DNA of 64,000 nucleotides from Anaeromyxobacter sp. Fw109-5. GTDB lineage: Bacteria > Myxococcota > Myxococcia > Myxococcales > Anaeromyxobacteraceae. The notes below the pieces were generated by a model. It was not told where the DNA came from, made no database searches, and saw only the letters and a program-made list of their open reading frames with translations. The stretch is taken from the NCBI RefSeq assembly GCF_000017505.1, contig NC_009675.1, forward strand, positions 3,233,001-3,297,000. Direction: 5' to 3'. How positions within the stretch are numbered: position 1 is the first letter of the stretch; each line of letters opens with the position of its first letter. Shown one piece after another: positions 7,970-35,359 of this stretch. Made by a program: the position numbers and the translations under genes.

Positions 7970-8194
7970 ATGCGCAAGAAGCTCTCCGCCATCGGCAACA
8001 GCCTCGGCATCGTCATCGAGAAGCCTATCCTCGAGCTCCTGGACATCGACCGGGAGACGGAGCTCGACATGCGGACGGACGGGGAGCGGCTCATCATCGA
8101 GCCCATCCGGGGAGCCAAGCGGGCGAAGGTGAAGGCGGCGGCGCAGCGCGCGATGGCGGCGCACGACGCGACCCTCCGGAAGCTCGCGAAGTGA
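7970..8194 (+). CDS. AbrB/MazE-type antitoxin of the Doc pair
   Basis: 74 residues. The N-terminal 45 form a swapped-hairpin AbrB/SpoVT domain: MRKKLSAIGNSLGIVIEKPI, then LELLDIDRETELDMRTDGER and LIIEPI. The GNS-x-GIVI segment is the hallmark of MazE-like antitoxins. The C-terminal tail KRAKVKAAAQRAMAAHDATL is a basic/alanine helix, the part expected to wrap the toxin. The stop overlaps the toxin start as GTGA, so the two are translationally coupled. It should neutralise the Doc-like toxin and repress the operon. Doc toxins are classically paired with Phd antitoxins; pairing with an AbrB fold is a known alternative. Confidence 0.88.
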   Translation: MRKKLSAIGNSLGIVIEKPILELLDIDRETELDMRTDGERLIIEPIRGAKRAKVKAAAQRAMAAHDATLRKLAK

Positions 8195-8586
8195 GCGAAC
8201 CCGTCTTCCTCGACGTCGAGGACGTGCTCCTCATCCACGAGGAGCAGCTCGCGCGCTACGGCGGGGCCGCGGGAATTCGCGACGCTGGCCTGCTTGAATC
8301 GGCGGTCGCCGTACCGCGCGCGTCAGCCGGCGGCGAGTTCGCGCACCAGGACCTCTTCGCCATGGCGGCCGCCTACGCGTTCCACATCGCGCAGAACCAA
8401 CCGTTCTTGGACGGCAACAAGCGGGCGGGCCTCCTTGCTGCGTTGGTGTTCCTCGACTTGAACGGCGTTGAGATCGCCGACCCCGAGGGCCGCCTCTACG
8501 ACGCCATGATCGCGATCGCCGCCCACGAGTTGGACAAGCCGGGGATGGGCCACCTCCTGCGGGAACTGGCAACCGCGCCTCGATAA
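8191..8586 (+). CDS. Fic/Doc-family death-on-curing toxin
   Basis: 131 residues, GTG start inside the antitoxin stop. Fold and length match Doc: a start EPVFLDVEDVLLIHEEQLAR, then YGGAAGIRDAGLLESAVAVP and the core motif QPFLDGNKRAG at residues 70-80. Doc proteins phosphorylate elongation factor Tu and stop translation. In Doc and Fic the first motif residue is the catalytic His (H-x-F-x-D/E-x-N-K/G-R); here that position is Gln70 (codon CAA, one base from His). Phe, Asp, Asn, Lys and Arg of the motif are intact. Either activity is reduced or lost, or this lineage uses a variant motif; I cannot tell which from sequence alone. Confidence 0.9.
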   Translation: MSEPVFLDVEDVLLIHEEQLARYGGAAGIRDAGLLESAVAVPRASAGGEFAHQDLFAMAAAYAFHIAQNQPFLDGNKRAGLLAALVFLDLNGVEIADPEGRLYDAMIAIAAHELDKPGMGHLLRELATAPR

Positions 8587-24252: not shown

Positions 24253-26019
24253 TCAGAGATCGATGACCACGTCTCCGGTGGGCCTCGAGCAACAGATGAG
24301 CACGCTGCCGGGCGCGGGGGGATCGAGTGGTTCGGGGTCGTAGGCCACGGAGCCCGAGATGAGCCCGCTCTGACAGTTGTGGCAGACGCCCGTGCGGCAC
24401 GACCACCTCGCTGGCACGTCGCAGGCCTCCGCGAGCTCGAGCAGGGAGCCGCGCGACGGGCTCCACCGAACGGCGAGCCCGCTCCGGGCGAACGAGACGA
24501 GCGGTCCCGAGCCGGCCGGCCCGAGGGGTGGGTGTGGCGTGCGGGCAGCAGCGGGCGCGATCCCAGGCGTCATCGATTCGCCGGGCCCGAACACCTCCGT
24601 ATGGATCCGCGCCCGTGAGACCCCCCACCCCGCCAGGCCGGCGGTCAGGTCGCTCAGGAACGCGGGAGGGCCGCACAGGTAGAAGTCCGCATCGCGGGGA
24701 ACCCCCACCTCCTCGAGGGCGGCGACGGTGAGACGTCCGGGAGCGTCGAAGTCGGTCCCGGGCACGTCCTCCGGGCGCGGCCGGCTGTAGCGGACGTGAG
24801 AGTGCCCGCCGGGGAGCGCGCGTACCAGGCCGCGGGACTCCTCGCGAAACGGGTGATCGTCGCGGTTGCGTCCGCCGAACAGCCACCACACCTCCCGCCG
24901 CGAGCGCTCCATGGCCAGCACGTGGAGCATCGCCAGCACCGGGGTCGCTCCCACCCCGGCGCCGAGCAGGACGACGGGCCCCTCGCCATCACGTAACGTG
25001 AACGTCCCCCGAGGCGCGCTCACCTCCAGCAGGTCGCCTACGCGAGCGCGCTCGCACAGATAGGCGCTCGCCACTCCATGCGGCTCGCGCTTGACGCTGA
25101 CGCGGTATCGCTCGAGGCTCGGCGCACCGGAGAGCGAGTAGCTGCGCAGCAGGGGAGGCCCTCCCGGAGCGGGCCGAAGCCGCAACACCACGAACTGCCC
25201 ACCCAGCGCCCGCGCGAGGGAGCTCCCGTCGGCGGGCTCGAGCTCGATGGACACCACGCTGCCGCTCTCCGGCGTGATGCGGGCGATACGGAGCGGGCGG
25301 AAGCCCGGCCAGGCCGGTGCCGGCGACGACGGAGGGTCCAGCCCAGGGTTGCCCGCCGGCGCCCCTGTGGCCGCCCCCGCGTGGTCGAGCATGGCCTGGA
25401 AGGATCCTCTCCAGCCCGGGCTCAGCGCCGGGATGCGGAGCGCCCGCTCCAGATCCGCGCGGAGGTGGCCCGGCAGGTAGAGGAGCGCGTTCACCCGCGC
25501 AACGGTCATGCGCTCCGGGCCGTCCGCCACCTTCGCGATCTCGTCGCCCGCCGCGACGTCGCCCTCCTGGAGCACGCGCAGGTAGAAGCCGGGCCTGCCG
25601 CTCGAGACGAGGAGCGCCGGCATCCGGGGGTCGTCCATGCGTATGCCGACGCGGTAGCAGGTCACGCGCGGCTGCGTCACCTCGAAGATCGCGCCCCCGA
25701 TGCGATACCGGTCGCCGATGCACACCTCGTCATCGGGCAGGCCGTCGACGGTGAAGTTCTCGCCGAACTGCCCGAAGGTGAAGCCCCCTCGACCGAGCTC
25801 CTTCTCCCAGAACCGGTAGGAGGCGAGCTGGTAGACGAGCACCGCTCGCTGCTCTCCCCCGTGGCCAGCCAGGTCGCCCTGCCGGTCGCCGTCGATGTTG
25901 AGCCGTCTCACCATGCGCCGCCCCGCCACGGGCGCCTTCCAGACCGACGTGTGAACGGTCTGGCCTTGCCATGCGAGGTCACGGGGCACGCCCACGTTCA
26001 CTGACAGCAATCGCGGCAC
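24253..26019 (-). CDS. MOSC domain - ferredoxin-NAD(P) reductase - 2Fe-2S ferredoxin fusion
   Basis: 588 residues from a GTG at 26019 behind TCGGAGGACCCG; the frame is open further upstream without plausible protein. Residues 1-170 are a YiiM-like MOSC domain (RRLNIDGDRQGDLAGHGGEQ, then FGENFTVDGL) with the expected Cys in QPRVTCYRVG. Residues 225-460 are a flavin reductase: RSYSLSG binds the isoalloxazine, VVLLGAGVGATPVLAML binds NAD(P), and FYLCGPPAFL closes the site. Residues 505-588 are a plant-type ferredoxin with CDVPARWSCRTGVCHNC and the distal Cys in SVLICCSRP. Such fusions are thought to reduce N-hydroxylated or molybdenum-cofactor-related substrates; the true one is unknown. Confidence 0.92.
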   Translation of the reverse strand: MPRLLSVNVGVPRDLAWQGQTVHTSVWKAPVAGRRMVRRLNIDGDRQGDLAGHGGEQRAVLVYQLASYRFWEKELGRGGFTFGQFGENFTVDGLPDDEVCIGDRYRIGGAIFEVTQPRVTCYRVGIRMDDPRMPALLVSSGRPGFYLRVLQEGDVAAGDEIAKVADGPERMTVARVNALLYLPGHLRADLERALRIPALSPGWRGSFQAMLDHAGAATGAPAGNPGLDPPSSPAPAWPGFRPLRIARITPESGSVVSIELEPADGSSLARALGGQFVVLRLRPAPGGPPLLRSYSLSGAPSLERYRVSVKREPHGVASAYLCERARVGDLLEVSAPRGTFTLRDGEGPVVLLGAGVGATPVLAMLHVLAMERSRREVWWLFGGRNRDDHPFREESRGLVRALPGGHSHVRYSRPRPEDVPGTDFDAPGRLTVAALEEVGVPRDADFYLCGPPAFLSDLTAGLAGWGVSRARIHTEVFGPGESMTPGIAPAAARTPHPPLGPAGSGPLVSFARSGLAVRWSPSRGSLLELAEACDVPARWSCRTGVCHNCQSGLISGSVAYDPEPLDPPAPGSVLICCSRPTGDVVIDL

Positions 26020-26273
26020 CGGGTCCTCCGAGGCCTTCGCCACCTGGGCGCCTGCTCCTCGCCTGGCCTGGGCTCCAGGCGAACGGACAGGGCTTCGGTG
26101 GCCCTGGCCACTCCCTCCGAACGGACTGTCGTTGATGAATTGGCCTGGAGGGTTCAACGGCCGCGCGGGGTGCCGCGACGGGACGCGCTGGACCGAGGCC
26201 TCGACGCCTCCTCCCGCCACACGAGCGAGCCGCGAGCGTCCTCCGCGCGCGCGCCGCCGGCGAGCGCCCGCCC

Positions 26274-27113
26274 TCACCCCGCGATCAGGGCGATCGCGCC
26301 CAGCACCGCCACGATCCCGGCGCCCTGCGTCCGGCTCACGCGCTCCCGCAGCAGCCCTGCCGCGAGCAGCACGGTGCTCGCGGGGTACATGGAGGAGAGG
26401 ACCGCCGCGACGTCGAGGCGGCCGGCCTGCGCCGCGAGGATGAAGAAGGCGTTCCCGCCCGCGTCGAGCGCCCCGGAGAGCACGACGAGCGGCGCGGCCG
26501 ACCTCGCCGGCACCCAGGGGCCGCGGCGGACGGCGGCCGCGGCGAGGGCGAGCGCCAGCGACGTGCCGCGCGCCGCGGCGAGGGGCCAGAAGGTCCCGCC
26601 CTGCGCGCCGCGGTCCATCAGCACGAGGAACCCGCCGAAGCCGCACCCGGCGAGGAGCGCGAGCCCGAGCCCGTCTCGGCGCTCACCGGGCGGGCCTGCG
26701 CGCGCGATGAGCCAGATGCCGGCGAGCGCGAGGGCGAACCCGACGAGCTTCGAAGGCGGCGGCACGCCCTCGACGATCGCGCTCCACGCGAGCGGGATCG
26801 TCGCCGAGAGCACCGCGGAGAGGGGCGCGACCACCGCCATCCGCCCCACCGCGAGCCCGCGGTACAGCGCGGCCAGGCCGATGGCCCCTGACGCGCCGGC
26901 CGCGACGCTCCACGCGAGCGCGGCCCTCGCGGGCGACTCCTCGCGGAGGAGCAGCGCGAGCGCGACGATGAGCGCGACGCCGGCCGCCTGGCCGAGCGCG
27001 AGGACACCGAGGACCGGCGACCGCTTCGATGCGAGCCCTCCGGTGAAGTCGCCTGCGCCCCACGACGCGGCGGACGCGAGACCCAGGAAGACGGCGGCGG
27101 CGTCGGGCGGCAT
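26274..27113 (-). CDS. EamA/DMT-family transporter
   Basis: 279 residues, ATG at 27113. Ten hydrophobic helices are arranged as two EamA halves: AVFLGLASAASWGAGDFTGG opens the first, and GLGLALLAGCGFGGFLVLMD the second. Each half ends with a helix of the AIVEGVPPPSKLVGFALALA and ERVSRTQGAGIVAVLGAIAL type, typical of drug/metabolite transporters. These inner-membrane proteins export amino acids, metabolites or toxins, probably by proton exchange. The substrate cannot be inferred, and neighbours give no hint. Confidence 0.9.
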   Translation of the reverse strand: MPPDAAAVFLGLASAASWGAGDFTGGLASKRSPVLGVLALGQAAGVALIVALALLLREESPARAALAWSVAAGASGAIGLAALYRGLAVGRMAVVAPLSAVLSATIPLAWSAIVEGVPPPSKLVGFALALAGIWLIARAGPPGERRDGLGLALLAGCGFGGFLVLMDRGAQGGTFWPLAAARGTSLALALAAAAVRRGPWVPARSAAPLVVLSGALDAGGNAFFILAAQAGRLDVAAVLSSMYPASTVLLAAGLLRERVSRTQGAGIVAVLGAIALIAG

Positions 27114-30557: not shown

Positions 30558-30914
30558 GTGCTGACCGCCACCTGCCACTGCGGCGCCGTACGCGTCGAGC
30601 TGCCGCGAAGGCCCCGCTCCCTGACGAGCTGCAACTGTTCGATCTGCAGACGGTACGGCACCCTCTGGGCGTACTACAAGCCGAGCTCGATCCGAGTCGT
30701 GTGCGCGGCCGGTGCGACGTCGAGCTACTCCTGGGGTCACAGGACCATCCGCTTCGTCCGCTGCGACACGTGTGGATGCGTGACCCACTACGAGCGCGAC
30801 GGCTCTCCGGAGCGGAGCGTCGGGGTGAACGCGCGCAACGTCGATCCGGCCGAGCTGGGCTCGGTGCGCGTCCGCAGGCTGGATGGCGCGGCGACGTGGA
30901 AGTACCTGGACTGA
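30558..30914 (+). CDS. GFA / CENP-V family zinc protein
   Basis: 118 residues, GTG start. All metal ligands of the glutathione-dependent formaldehyde-activating fold are present: TATCHCGAVRVEL, TSCNCSICRRYGTLWAYY and VRCDTCGCVTHYE. The central SVGVNARNVDP strand and the closing VRRLDGAATWKYL are typical. Founding members were proposed to bind S-hydroxymethylglutathione; most relatives have no proven activity. It is the intact counterpart of the frameshifted GFA gene at 10529-10917. Confidence 0.88.
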   Translation: MLTATCHCGAVRVELPRRPRSLTSCNCSICRRYGTLWAYYKPSSIRVVCAAGATSSYSWGHRTIRFVRCDTCGCVTHYERDGSPERSVGVNARNVDPAELGSVRVRRLDGAATWKYLD

Positions 30915-30992: not shown

Positions 30993-32054
30993 GTGCGTCG
31001 TTTGGACCGCCATCCACGGCGAGGGACCCCATCCCGAATCAGGGCGCGCCCCGCTGGGGTGTGCCGGTGGTCGTGCATCGTCTCCGCGCTCGCGCTCGCG
31101 CTCGCCGGGTGCGGCTTGCGCGCGGACCGCGACCGCGAGCCGCTCGTGGTCGCCACCGTGAGGCAGCCCGCGACCGCGCTCTTCTTCGTCGCGCGCGAGT
31201 CGGGCTGCTTCGACGACGAGCGCCTCCAGGTCGTCGAGCACGGGTTCGAACTCGGCCGGGACGCCGTCTCGCTGCTGCTGCAGAATCGCGCCGACGTCGC
31301 CATCGCGTTCGAGACGCCGACGCTGCGCGCGGCCGTGGCCGACGAGCGCATCCGCGTGCTCACGACGCTGCACAAGTCGATGCGCAACACCCGTCTCGTC
31401 GCTCGCCGAGATCGCGGGTTCGCGTCCTTCTCCGAGCTCGCCGGTGCGCGCATCGGCCTCGCGGAAGGCTCGAACGCCGACTTCTTCGTCGACCTGGTCC
31501 TCCGATTCGGGGGTGTCCCGCGATCGGGGGTGACCATCGTGAACCTCTTTCCGGAAGCCTCGGTCGGCGCGCTCGCGAGGGGCGAGCTGGACGCGGCGGT
31601 CCTTTCCGATCCCTGGGCCGCGCGCGCGGAGCAGCTGCTGGGCGATGACGCGCGGGTGCTCCAGACCGATCTCTACACGGAGATGTCGCTCCTGCTGACG
31701 CGGGACGACGTTCTCCACACTCGGGAGGGAGCGCTGCGAAGGCTCGTCCGAGGGCTCGCGTGCGGGGAGCGCGTGTCACGGGAGCATCCGGAGGAGGCGC
31801 TGCGCCGCATCCGCGCGCGGTTCCCGGAGCTCGGCGAGCGCGAGCTGCGAGAGCAGCTCTCGCGGGTCGAGTGGGGGCTCGGGCTCGACCACGTGCTCCT
31901 GGGCGTGCTGCGCGACGAGCGCGACTGGTTCCGCGACTCCGGTGGCCTGGAGGGCGCGGGCCCCGATCTGCAGCGGCTCCTCGCACGCGGCCTCCTGGAG
32001 GACGTCGAGCCCGAAGCCGTCATGCTCCTGCCTGCGACGGGGGCCGCGCGGTGA
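30993..32054 (+). CDS. NMT1/THI5-like substrate-binding lipoprotein
   Basis: 353 residues from a GTG at 30993; a second in-frame GTG at 31059 would start directly at the signal, CRWSCIVSALALALAGC, a clear lipobox. The mature part is a periplasmic-binding fold: PLVVATVRQPATALFFVARE, FDDERLQVVEHGFELGRDAV, NRADVAIAFETPTLRAAVAD, and the hinge strand GARIGLAEGSNADFFVDLVL. This resembles SsuA/ThiY/taurine-type binding proteins. No permease or ATPase gene is near; instead the stop overlaps the start of a histidine kinase as GTGA. I infer that it works as a ligand-sensing partner of that kinase. Confidence 0.82.
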   Translation: MRRLDRHPRRGTPSRIRARPAGVCRWSCIVSALALALAGCGLRADRDREPLVVATVRQPATALFFVARESGCFDDERLQVVEHGFELGRDAVSLLLQNRADVAIAFETPTLRAAVADERIRVLTTLHKSMRNTRLVARRDRGFASFSELAGARIGLAEGSNADFFVDLVLRFGGVPRSGVTIVNLFPEASVGALARGELDAAVLSDPWAARAEQLLGDDARVLQTDLYTEMSLLLTRDDVLHTREGALRRLVRGLACGERVSREHPEEALRRIRARFPELGERELREQLSRVEWGLGLDHVLLGVLRDERDWFRDSGGLEGAGPDLQRLLARGLLEDVEPEAVMLLPATGAAR

Positions 32055-33556
32055 AGAGCCTGACGCGCGCGATCTTCGTGCAGACGGTGGTCCTCGCCTT
32101 CGTCATCGGCGCCGCGCTCGCGTTCCTGGGCTGGGAGTCCGCGCGTCAAGCCCGCGCGCTGGAGCGGGACGCGAACCAGGTCCGCGTCGCGACCGCGCTC
32201 GCGCTCGCGCTCACCGACGCCGCGCACGAGGAGGAGCGCTGGATCTCGTCGCTCGCTTCTCGCTCCGCGGCGCTCCAGGAGACGCGCATCGCAGAGGCAG
32301 GGGAGCACGTGGCCAGGCGGTCCACGGACATCGAGGCGTTCCCGCTCTCGCCGCGTGCAGCGGAGGTCTGGACGCAGTTCGTCGGATCGCGGCGGGCCCT
32401 GCGCCCGTACACCGAGGAGGTGGTCGCGGCCGCGAGGCGCGGCGACCCGACGGCGATGACCCTCGCGCTGGACAAGTGGCGACTCATGAACGCCCGCGCG
32501 GACCTCCTGCTCAGCAACTTCACCGCCTACCACCTCAACCGGCTCGATCGGACGGTGGCGGATCTCCAGCGGCGCCGGACGCGCACGCTCGCGCTGGCAG
32601 GAGCCGCGGTCGCCGCCGCGCTCCTGCTGGCGGCCGGGTTCGCCGCCGCGCTCTCGCGCAAGGTCGTGCTGCCGCTCGTCGAGATGGCGAGCACCGCGAA
32701 CCGCATCCAGGCGACGGGGACCGCGACCCCGGTCGCGGGGGCGGAGCGCCGCGACGAGCTGGGCGTCCTCGCCCGCGCCTTCAACGACATGACGGGACGG
32801 CTCGTGTCGGCGAACACCACCCTCGCCGGCGCCAACGCGAGCCTCGCCGAGGCCGTGCGCGCGCGGGACGAGTTCATCTCCATCGCGTCTCACGAGCTGA
32901 AGACGCCCATCACGCCGCTCGCCCTTCGCGTCCAGCATCTGCTGCGTATCGCGCGCGAGGCGCAGCACGGCCTCGTCCCACGCGAGCAGCTCGTCAGGGT
33001 GACCCGGAACCTGGACACCCACGTCGTCAAGCTCTCGAAGCTCGTCGAGAACCTGCTGGACGTCTCGCGCATCAACTCGGGTCAGCTCGCGCTCCGGATG
33101 GAGGACTTCCCCCTCGCCGCCGCCGTCGGCGACGCGCTGGACCGGGTCTCCGAGGAGCTGTCGGCCGCGAGCTGCGACGTGCGCGTCGAAGGCGCCACGG
33201 ACGTCATCGTCCGCGGCGACCGATCGCGGGTCGAGCAGGTGCTCGTGAACCTCCTCGGGAACGCCGCCAAGTACGCGCCCGGCGGCCCCGTGGTCGTGAG
33301 GGTGGCGGCGAGCGCCGACGTGGTCGAGGTGGAGATCGAGGACGCCGGGCCGGGGATCACTCCCCAGGATCAGCAGCGCATCTTCGAGCGGTTCGAGCGC
33401 GCGGCCGCCGACCGGCACGTCTCCGGGCTGGGACTCGGCCTCTACATCGCGCGCGAGATCGTGCAGGCCCACAGCGGCGAGCTCTCGGTCCGGAGCGAGC
33501 CCGGTCGCGGGGCGACGTTCGCGATGCGCTTCCGGAGAGCGTCGCCGGGAAGCTAG
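32051..33556 (+). CDS. HAMP-domain sensor histidine kinase
   Basis: 501 residues, GTG start inside the stop of the binding lipoprotein. Membrane helix 1 is at about 7-27, a roughly 150-residue helical periplasmic domain follows, and helix 2 is at about 180-202 (LALAGAAVAAALLLAAGFAA). HAMP runs to about 260 (PLVEMASTANRIQATG and DELGVLARAFNDM). The phospho-acceptor is His281 in FISIASHELKTPITPLA. The ATPase domain has QVLVNLLGNAAKYAPGG (N box), EDAGPGITP (G1), IFERFERA (F box) and SGLGLGLYIAREIV (G2). No response regulator is adjacent. The periplasmic domain probably docks the co-encoded binding protein. Confidence 0.93.
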   Translation: MKSLTRAIFVQTVVLAFVIGAALAFLGWESARQARALERDANQVRVATALALALTDAAHEEERWISSLASRSAALQETRIAEAGEHVARRSTDIEAFPLSPRAAEVWTQFVGSRRALRPYTEEVVAAARRGDPTAMTLALDKWRLMNARADLLLSNFTAYHLNRLDRTVADLQRRRTRTLALAGAAVAAALLLAAGFAAALSRKVVLPLVEMASTANRIQATGTATPVAGAERRDELGVLARAFNDMTGRLVSANTTLAGANASLAEAVRARDEFISIASHELKTPITPLALRVQHLLRIAREAQHGLVPREQLVRVTRNLDTHVVKLSKLVENLLDVSRINSGQLALRMEDFPLAAAVGDALDRVSEELSAASCDVRVEGATDVIVRGDRSRVEQVLVNLLGNAAKYAPGGPVVVRVAASADVVEVEIEDAGPGITPQDQQRIFERFERAAADRHVSGLGLGLYIAREIVQAHSGELSVRSEPGRGATFAMRFRRASPGS

Positions 33557-33574: not shown

Positions 33575-35359
33575 CTAGCGCGCCGGGATCGCGAGCTTCG
33601 TCCCGAACCGCGCCTCGTACCGCGTCGCGAGCGCGGCGAGCGCGGGCGCATCCTCCAGCCGCCGGTAGGCGAGCGCGAGGCGCGTCCAGGCCTCGCCGTC
33701 CCCGTCGTCGAGCTCGATGGCGCGGCGGAGGTGCGTGGCCGCGTCGGCCCAGCGTCGCTCCGCGATGGCGGTCTCGCCGAGGGCGCGGGGCGGATAGGGG
33801 GCGTCGGGAGCGGCCGCCGCCGCGGCCTCGCAGGCCCTCCGGGTCGCCGCGAGGCGCTTGCCGGCGGCGCGCACGCGGCAGCTCACGAGCGCGGCGCCCG
33901 GCGTGCCGGCGAACGTCCGCTCGAGCCGCGCCGCGCCATCGGCCGCGGCGTCGAGCTTCGCCAGGGCGACGTGCCGCTCCGCCTCGCGGAGCGCGGCGAC
34001 GTACTCGGCCTCGCGGTCCGCCGGGAGCGGCGGCGACACCGACGCGAGCCCGACCTGGCGGCGGGTCCGCGCGCAGTCCGCCCGGAGCACGTCGGCGCCC
34101 GGCAGGGAAGCGACGCGCGCGGCGAGCCGCTCCGCGGCGGAGCACGCCTCGACCTCCCCGTAGAGCTGCGCGACGCGCAGCCAGGTGTCCGGCGCCGCGC
34201 CGCGCGCCTCCAGCACCGGCTCCGCGCGCACGAGCGCCCGGGCGGCGCCCGGCCGGTCCCGCTGGTCCAGCAGGACCATGGCGAGCGCGACGAGCACCTC
34301 GGCGCCGGCGTCCGGCGCGTCCGCGGCCGCGCGGCAGGCCGCGAGCGTCTCTCGAGCCCGCGTGGAGCGCGCCATGGCGGCGAAGCAGGCGCGGCCCGGC
34401 CCCGGCGAGACGCCCGCGGCGGCCGGGCCCGGCGCCGGCGCCGCCCCGCCGGCGGGCCCGAAGAAGGCGTCCGCCGCCGCGAGCGCGCCGTCGCGGGTCG
34501 CCCCGTTCCACGCCGCTCCGGTCCGTGCGACGACGTCGCGGTACCCCCGCGCCCACTCCGCGCGCGCCGCCGGGTCCCGCGTGTCCCGGTGTCGAAGCCC
34601 GAGCCGCACGAGCGCGGCGGACTCCTGCGAGAACCGCGAGCCGCGCGTGCCGTAGAACGGCGACATGAGCCACTCCGGCGCGCGCTCGTGGAACGCGCCG
34701 AGCGTGTGCGCCCACTCGTGCAAGAGCACCGCGGTCTCGCGGTGGAGCATCCGCTCGCGGACGACCGCCTCGCGCTCCGAAGCGGAGAGGTGGTCGAGCG
34801 AGGCCTCCATCGCGTTCCGCTCGTCGCGCGAGTGCATCGCGCGGATCACCACGTGCCGGCCGAACTGGAACGCCATCCCGAGGAGCGGATCCGCCACGGC
34901 CACGGACTCGCTCGCGGGCACGAACCCGAACACCCAGTCGACGTCGCCCCCCGGATCGACGGCCGCGAGCGAGGCGAGCGCCGCCTCGAGGTTCCCCGAG
35001 CCTTCGCCGCTCTCCCAGGTGCGCACCGACTCCACGGCGAGCCGCGCGCCGAACAGCGGCTCGAGGACCCGGTTCGCACGCTCGAGCTGGGCGTGGAGCT
35101 TCTCTCGCCACCTGAGCGTCTGCCGCTGGTACCCCGCGTCCACGTACAGACGCACGCGATAGGTGCGCGCGGCGGGAGGGGCCTCCGCCGCGGAGGGCGC
35201 CTCGATGTCCGCCGGCCGCAGCGTCCTCGCGTAGTCGCGCTGCACGTCCGCGGTGGTGCGGCAGCCCGCGAGGATCGCCAGCCCCGCGATGAGCGCCGTG
35301 GCCGCGAGCCGGTGCAGCCGCTCCCCGCGCCGAGCCGCGCGGCATGTCCCTGGTGCCAT
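33575..35359 (-). CDS. Metzincin-like lipoprotein with C-terminal TPR-like region
   Basis: 594 residues from an ATG at 35359. The signal TALIAGLAILAGC places a lipobox Cys at 33. Residues 60-240 resemble a zinc peptidase: VLLHEWAHTLGAFH supplies HExxHxxGxxH (His214, Glu215, His218, His224), and WLMSPFYGTRG eight residues on has a Met that could be the metzincin Met-turn (Met232). Residues 330-594 are Ala-rich paired helices (AETAIAERRWADAATHLRRA, DDGDGEAWTRLALAYRRLED), typical of tetratricopeptide repeats. The predicted place is the outer or inner membrane, facing the periplasm. I do not recognise a named family. It is convergent with the sensor kinase, 18 bases apart. Confidence 0.75.
   Translation of the reverse strand: MAPGTCRAARRGERLHRLAATALIAGLAILAGCRTTADVQRDYARTLRPADIEAPSAAEAPPAARTYRVRLYVDAGYQRQTLRWREKLHAQLERANRVLEPLFGARLAVESVRTWESGEGSGNLEAALASLAAVDPGGDVDWVFGFVPASESVAVADPLLGMAFQFGRHVVIRAMHSRDERNAMEASLDHLSASEREAVVRERMLHRETAVLLHEWAHTLGAFHERAPEWLMSPFYGTRGSRFSQESAALVRLGLRHRDTRDPAARAEWARGYRDVVARTGAAWNGATRDGALAAADAFFGPAGGAAPAPGPAAAGVSPGPGRACFAAMARSTRARETLAACRAAADAPDAGAEVLVALAMVLLDQRDRPGAARALVRAEPVLEARGAAPDTWLRVAQLYGEVEACSAAERLAARVASLPGADVLRADCARTRRQVGLASVSPPLPADREAEYVAALREAERHVALAKLDAAADGAARLERTFAGTPGAALVSCRVRAAGKRLAATRRACEAAAAAAPDAPYPPRALGETAIAERRWADAATHLRRAIELDDGDGEAWTRLALAYRRLEDAPALAALATRYEARFGTKLAIPAR

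Follow-up and report, generated by a model that had tools for sequence, protein, structure and literature searches.

That chemoreceptors, kinases and cyclases can perceive signals via solute-binding proteins (SBPs) is established (PMC9602780), and SBP-dependent sensing by kinases is already known as a kind. According to PMC11113362, 10 of the 11 characterised SBP-kinase couples are gene neighbours, and for most receptors the signal is unknown. The same source reports that AgtS and AruS of P. aeruginosa did not bind their neighbouring SBPs, a case in which adjacency failed as a predictor, so that an SBP gene adjoining a kinase gene does not always denote a partnership. Among the closest described systems, AioX, ArxX and ArrX are sensing SBPs, and in the AioX/AioS/AioR system for arsenic oxyanions the SBP is clustered with its kinase and with the AioR regulator (PMC5908839). 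TorS appears in a list of all-helical kinase sensors, where its ligands are given as TorT and TMAO (PMC8534201). In Anaeromyxobacter dehalogenans, two kinases are predicted to carry sensor domains of SBP fold, and the sensor of Adeh_2942 (PDB 4K0D) is a four-helix bundle (helices 38-75, 77-101, 104-134 and 137-179), for which the available text of this source mentions no binding-protein partner (PMC3831638).

The locus described here lies in a 64,000-nucleotide stretch (hereafter the window) of the Anaeromyxobacter sp. Fw109-5 genome, which consists of a single 5.28 Mb contig. The first gene of the two-gene unit (31059-32054, + strand) encodes an NMT1/SsuA-TauA-type solute-binding lipoprotein of 331 aa, assigned on the basis of Pfam NMT1 (PF09084; E 2.2e-16 and 60.9 bits for a 353-aa form, above the cut-off of 20.5), an AlphaFold model and SsuA and TauA as structural neighbours. 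Its start is probably the GTG at 31059, which is favoured over the alternative GTG at 30993 (+ strand, yielding the 353-aa form) by the preference of a codon-model gene caller and by three same-genus orthologues that start near the equivalent residue. A lipobox (LAGC; 31101-31112, + strand), recognised by sequence, contains the candidate lipidated residue Cys18 (codon 31110-31112), and this cysteine is invariant in a six-row alignment. The second gene (32051-33556, + strand) encodes a sensor histidine kinase of 501 aa with the domain order TM-sensor-TM-HAMP-HisKA-HATPase_c, as derived from Pfam and a structural model. Its periplasmic sensor domain (32141-32584, + strand; approximately residues 31-178) is predicted by AlphaFold to be a four-helix bundle between two TM helices, and is followed by a HAMP domain (32651-32806, + strand; residues 201-252; Pfam 1.6e-10), a HisKA domain (32861-33082, + strand; Pfam 3.4e-10) and a HATPase_c catalytic domain (33215-33538, + strand; residues 389-496; Pfam 1.2e-29). 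The phospho-acceptor His281 (codon 32891-32893), located in the HisKA motif SHELKTP, is invariant in kinase alignments, and with HisKA, phospho-acceptor histidine and HATPase_c all present the protein is an orthodox HisKA kinase.

A preliminary description of this DNA had noted that the NMT1-type SBP gene overlaps the HAMP kinase gene by GTGA, and that no ABC permease, ATPase or response regulator is nearby. Both statements were borne out, the first by the open reading frame coordinates and Pfam and the second by Pfam for the surroundings of the pair. Specifically, the overlap (32051-32054, + strand) consists of the GTG start of the kinase gene (32051-32053) and the TGA stop of the SBP gene (32052-32054). 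Short gene overlaps, for example of 4 bases, are frequent in bacteria, and given this frequency the overlap by itself would mean little. No consensus promoter or terminator was detected for the pair. The window has 57 called genes, 18 of which were covered by the Pfam scan; these span 22.6 to 41.0 kb with the pair included (8 proteins at E <= 0.1 and 10 proteins at E <= 1e-4), and neither an ABC permease nor an ABC ATPase nor a receiver domain was revealed among them. With no permease or ATPase gene in its operon, the SBP does not classify as part of an ABC importer, and because no response regulator lies nearby, the locus amounts to an incomplete two-component pair. An SBP gene that adjoins a gene for a kinase with a predicted extracytoplasmic sensor, and that comes with no transporter, has the arrangement of an SBP-dependent two-component system.

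The only transporter-family gene among those scanned encodes an EamA-type protein (26274-27113, - strand). The upstream same-strand neighbour of the SBP gene is a GFA-domain gene ending at 30914, and the downstream neighbour of the kinase gene (33575-35359) has the opposite orientation. Elsewhere in the window, Pfam indicated a fusion of a MOSC/YiiM-type protein with a ferredoxin-reductase-like module that includes a 2Fe-2S domain (24253-26043, - strand), and two small genes overlapping by four bases (7970-8586, + strand) resemble, by eye, an AbrB-type antitoxin and a Doc/Fic-type toxin. Like AioX, ArxX and ArrX, the SBP of the window is clustered with a kinase. Unlike AioX, which represents a new subfamily of oxyanion-binding proteins with a regulator gene in the cluster (PMC5908839), it is NMT1/SsuA-like and has no regulator nearby.

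The AlphaFold model of the SBP (mean pLDDT 94.8, from a 30-row alignment) was nearest, among solved structures, to SsuA (3ksx; Z 30.6, 283 residues, rmsd 2.6) and next to TauA (6ssy_B; Z 29.8, 279 residues, rmsd 2.5). In predicted fold and in family the protein is therefore like the ABC-importer binding proteins SsuA, TauA and NrtA, whereas it differs from them in its identity of only 16-18% in the SsuA and TauA structural alignments, in its setting and in its scores below the curated NCBIfam cut-offs (SsuA_fam, 80.1 vs 163.5; taurine_ABC_bnd, 34 vs 304.25). Because it falls under these cut-offs, the ligand cannot be read from family membership. Comparison with ArrX (6x8w) gave E 0.23 with the family profile A4, and 4.6e-11 with the broad profile A5, which also contains ABC-linked SBPs.

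The kinase model was weaker (mean pLDDT 75.4 and pTM 0.41, from 8 rows), with a pLDDT of 79-92 per ten-residue block over residues 31-180 of the sensor and with predicted helices at 2-67, 73-96, 101-130 and 133-222 (TM helices included). The predicted sensor thereby resembles that of Adeh_2942 in being a four-helix bundle with similar helix spacing, although its profile gave no match to 4K0D in a PDB sequence search. PDB sequence matches of this profile to a C-type lectin chain (E 4.4e-4, with no stretch passing alone) and to an ATPase inhibitor (E 2.2) were taken as chance. The isolated window sensor matched no Pfam family at E <= 5 (4HB_MCP_1, TarH, dCache and others), and the rows listed in structure searches with the kinase model were nearly all kinase cores, so that the sensor fold was hardly probed against solved structures. 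The combination of an all-helical sensor and a binding protein is also that of TorT/TorS, unlike which the window kinase scored 128.1 bits, below the NCBIfam TorS cut-off of 676.5. TorT is a member of another SBP family.

Conservation was examined by searching for the SBP in 60 relatives and, with profiles of SBP and sensor, in 195 Myxococcota genomes, scoring being limited to at most 11 to 16 candidates per genome. Among the scored candidates of the 195 genomes, sensor matches at E < 1e-9 were obtained at eight loci, located in the window genome (G000) and in G001, G002, G005, G010, G015, G149 and G150, which together span three genera and two families, and SBP matches at E < 1e-40 corresponded to the same eight loci. 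Sensor matches of lower significance (E 0.004 to 0.01) were regarded as noise. The SBP gene was located directly upstream of the kinase gene at all eight loci (that of G149 being cut by a contig end), with a 4-base overlap at five of them (the window, L027, L028, L089 and L090) and a 7-base overlap at the other three (L024-L026), where a second possible start would give 4. Four gene surroundings could be distinguished, namely those of the window, of L024-L026, of L027 and L028 (which have several flanking genes in common) and of L089 and L090 (which have the downstream gene in common, a chaperonin by eye). That the pair recurs eight times, and in four different gene surroundings, indicates that it is more than chance. 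The strong sensor matches were patchily distributed, occurring in 4 of the 9 genomes of the genus (that of the window included) and in 6 of the 24 of its family. For both genes, dN/dS values in three same-genus genomes ranged from 0.20 to 0.66, which is purifying selection on each of them.

No ABC ATPase motif was flagged within four genes of any of the eight pairs, to the extent that the contig ends at L089 and L090 allow. The arrangement that would speak against a sensing role, an orthologous SBP gene within a complete ABC operon that lacks the kinase, was looked for as well, and all eight close homologues found turned out to adjoin a kinase of the same sensor family. A scan of genome contigs with a single-protein query yielded no match, and the same scan with an alignment query yielded three loci, two of which were already in the set. 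In L115, from a groundwater Deltaproteobacteria MAG, a kinase gene (1076 aa) is located ten bases downstream of the SBP gene.

Judged from these comparisons, the conserved pair is best explained as a split receptor, and we consider it likely that SBP and kinase make one receptor in which the loaded SBP switches the kinase. The lipoprotein would be exported, anchored to a membrane and bind a small molecule; the fold cluster of the protein hints at an anion or at a solute resembling a sulfonate or an amine. Once loaded and closed, it may dock on the four-helix-bundle sensor of the kinase, and docking might in turn shift TM2 and HAMP and thereby change autophosphorylation at His281, in whichever direction the switch works. 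The phosphate would then pass to a response regulator encoded elsewhere in the window genome, and in relatives to a fused or adjacent receiver.

Alternatively, the kinase might sense a ligand of its own via the helical bundle, with the SBP acting as an antagonist, a buffer or a second input rather than as the main detector. Such direct sensing has parallels in the all-helical sensors of NarX and KinB, for which nitrate and phosphate are given as ligands (PMC8534201). Moreover, a second kinase-linked SBP lineage has a different sensor domain that could not be aligned with that of the window, and profile comparison of the window sensor revealed no homology to the sensor of this lineage or to that of the chemoreceptor in L037. 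However, strong sensor matches were found solely beside this SBP family (8/8 among the scored candidates of the phylum search), which points to a dependence of the sensor on the SBP and makes direct sensing as the main input unlikely.

A wider view of the SBP family was obtained from the 31 SBP rows at E <= 1e-15 in the 195 genomes, 18 of which were kinase-linked, 12 ABC-linked (ten on the basis of an ATPase motif no more than four genes away on either strand, L043 and L091 by eye) and one chemoreceptor-linked. The ten best rows were all kinase-linked. Two of the 18 kinase-linked rows were located at two contig ends of G023 (L030:4269-6576 and L029:5970-8472), the last 17 bases of which are identical, and these ends are probably the halves of one SBP gene, which would leave 17 kinase-linked genes instead of 18. 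In the joined locus the SBP would be preceded by a hybrid kinase and followed by a kinase and a CheY-like receiver. The search in the 60 relatives additionally revealed L033, a further kinase-linked locus, upstream of which lies an ABC set of the sugar type that has an SBP_bac_1 protein of its own.

As a control, 60 NMT1 loci were taken from the score-ranked matches listed, and therefore do not represent a random draw from all NMT1 proteins (58 were every second row not already in the set, and two replaced a repeated region and a row that had been skipped). Automatic rules, in which ABC-linked stands for an ATPase motif within three genes, called 45 of them ABC-linked, 9 other (some of which may be ABC-linked beyond contig ends), 4 NMT1-kinase fusions and 1 chemoreceptor-linked, with 1 not called. 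A free SBP with a kinase as the next same-strand gene occurred at 0 of the 60 control loci. The four fusions (L119:2047-4749, L121:10-2607, L122:3930-6473 and L123:1982-4528) were confirmed by Pfam and contain NMT1, PAS, HisKA, HATPase_c and receiver domains, the HisKA of L121 scoring just under the cut-off. As in the pair of the window, an NMT1 domain is the apparent kinase input in these sampled Myxococcota proteins, although they combine it with PAS and receiver domains in one polypeptide whereas the window system comprises two proteins. The preliminary description had further proposed a two-component sensor with the SBP as its ligand detector, a proposal that gains support from the conserved pairing, from the ABC-free loci and from these NMT1-kinase fusions in the same phylum.

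That control NMT1 proteins are mostly ABC-linked (45/60), and that the fold of the SBP is the SsuA and TauA fold, would also be expected if the SBP were an orphan transport subunit using an ABC permease encoded elsewhere, with the kinase merely a co-regulated neighbour. Against this, the four SsuC-like permease matches in the window genome each adjoin a binding protein or domain of their own (L036; L109, with NMT1_2; L110 and L111, by eye from the sequence starts), so that no vacant permease of the SsuC type is visible for the SBP. Three NMT1 matches were found in this genome at E <= 0.01. Together with the lack of ABC ATPase motifs around the orthologous pairs noted above, the occupied permeases make an orphan transport subunit very unlikely. 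Finally, a pair that are neighbours by history only, overlapping through genome compactness and without any functional link, would accord with the commonness of short overlaps and with the two non-interacting P. aeruginosa neighbourhoods (PMC11113362), but the retention of the pair across three genera of two families, in four gene surroundings and with both genes under purifying selection, renders this scarcely credible.

The SBP can further be placed within its family by means of a tree of 18 SBPs linked to kinases, 17 linked to ABC genes and 1 linked to a chemoreceptor, which included L033 as well as both members of each close pair and left out L030 (truncated), L091 and L115. Linkage labels changed 3 times on this tree vs 12.7 times in shuffles, showing that kinase-linked SBPs cluster. 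A single kinase-linked clade was neither shown nor rejected (AU p 0.164), the separating branch being weak (77/93), and one long-branched ABC-linked row (L093) was located inside the kinase-linked SBPs. A strict lipobox pattern was present in 10/16 kinase-linked vs 4/17 ABC-linked SBPs and a relaxed pattern in 14/16 vs 7/17; these counts, which involve rows related to each other and exclude two truncated rows, favour lipidation being commoner in kinase-linked SBPs.

With regard to chemoreceptors, an NMT1 SBP gene overlaps by four bases that of a chemoreceptor with a 4HB_MCP_1 sensor in both L037:7107-10186 and L124:1796-4887, and the sensor of the latter was recognised by Pfam as 4HB_MCP_1 and TarH. 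The chemoreceptor-linked SBP of L037 falls among the ABC-linked SBPs on the tree. In the window's genome itself, L112:1-7654 (G000:C1:4139000-4146653) contains a Phosphonate-bd-type binding protein within a chemosensory cluster that also encodes two proteins with MCP domains, two that are CheW-like, a receiver and, judged by eye, a CheA-like protein.

The SBP and sensor of the window are nearest to those of L024-L026 (60-62% and 45-47% identity), whereas its HisKA/HATPase region is nearer to L027 and L028 (49-53%, vs 36-42% to L024-L026). A transmitter swap between lineages was considered in this regard, but common descent of the four kinase cores was not rejected by the tree test (AU p 0.116), and the swap therefore stays a hint. 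The L024 kinase carries a fused REC domain (Pfam) in an extension that also aligns in L025 and L026, a CheY-like REC follows the kinase in L029, and a REC-GGDEF response regulator gene (L089:383-1735) is located directly upstream of the SBP gene on the same strand, which suggests a c-di-GMP output at L089. Because these receiver arrangements vary by locus, the output appears to differ between lineages while the input module is constant. In L024 (6180-8254), the selenoneine genes senA and senB (NCBIfam) precede the pair on the same strand at a distance of 127 bases, and similar genes occur in L025 and L026. A link of the pair to selenoneine synthesis was discarded, as senB lies at 644 kb in the window genome, far from the pair, and SenB also occurs in genomes of the family without the pair, so that SenB is no general partner.

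An evenly poised reading, for which we see about as much chance of being right as of being wrong, is that an NMT1/SsuA-type lineage of Myxococcota left transport and became a dedicated lipidated signalling co-receptor with changing partners, to which gene overlap often couples it, and that related NMT1 proteins moved separately to chemoreceptors and into fusions. As part of this same reading, the partners would comprise four-helix-bundle kinases whose sensor family is as yet unnamed, PAS/GAF kinases that have another sensor, receiver-fused kinases and a kinase preceded by a diguanylate-cyclase regulator. Titles and abstract openings of the open-licence literature yielded nothing on NMT1-type binding proteins paired with kinases in Myxococcota, and this SBP family, its sensor domain and its spread in the phylum were not met in the open-licence literature searched. 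A kinase with a separate binding-protein detector is approachable by ligand screening on the binding protein. The kinase-linked genes (17 or 18, plus L033) form a defined Myxococcota set, and this set shows how an importer-type subunit can turn into part of a sensor.
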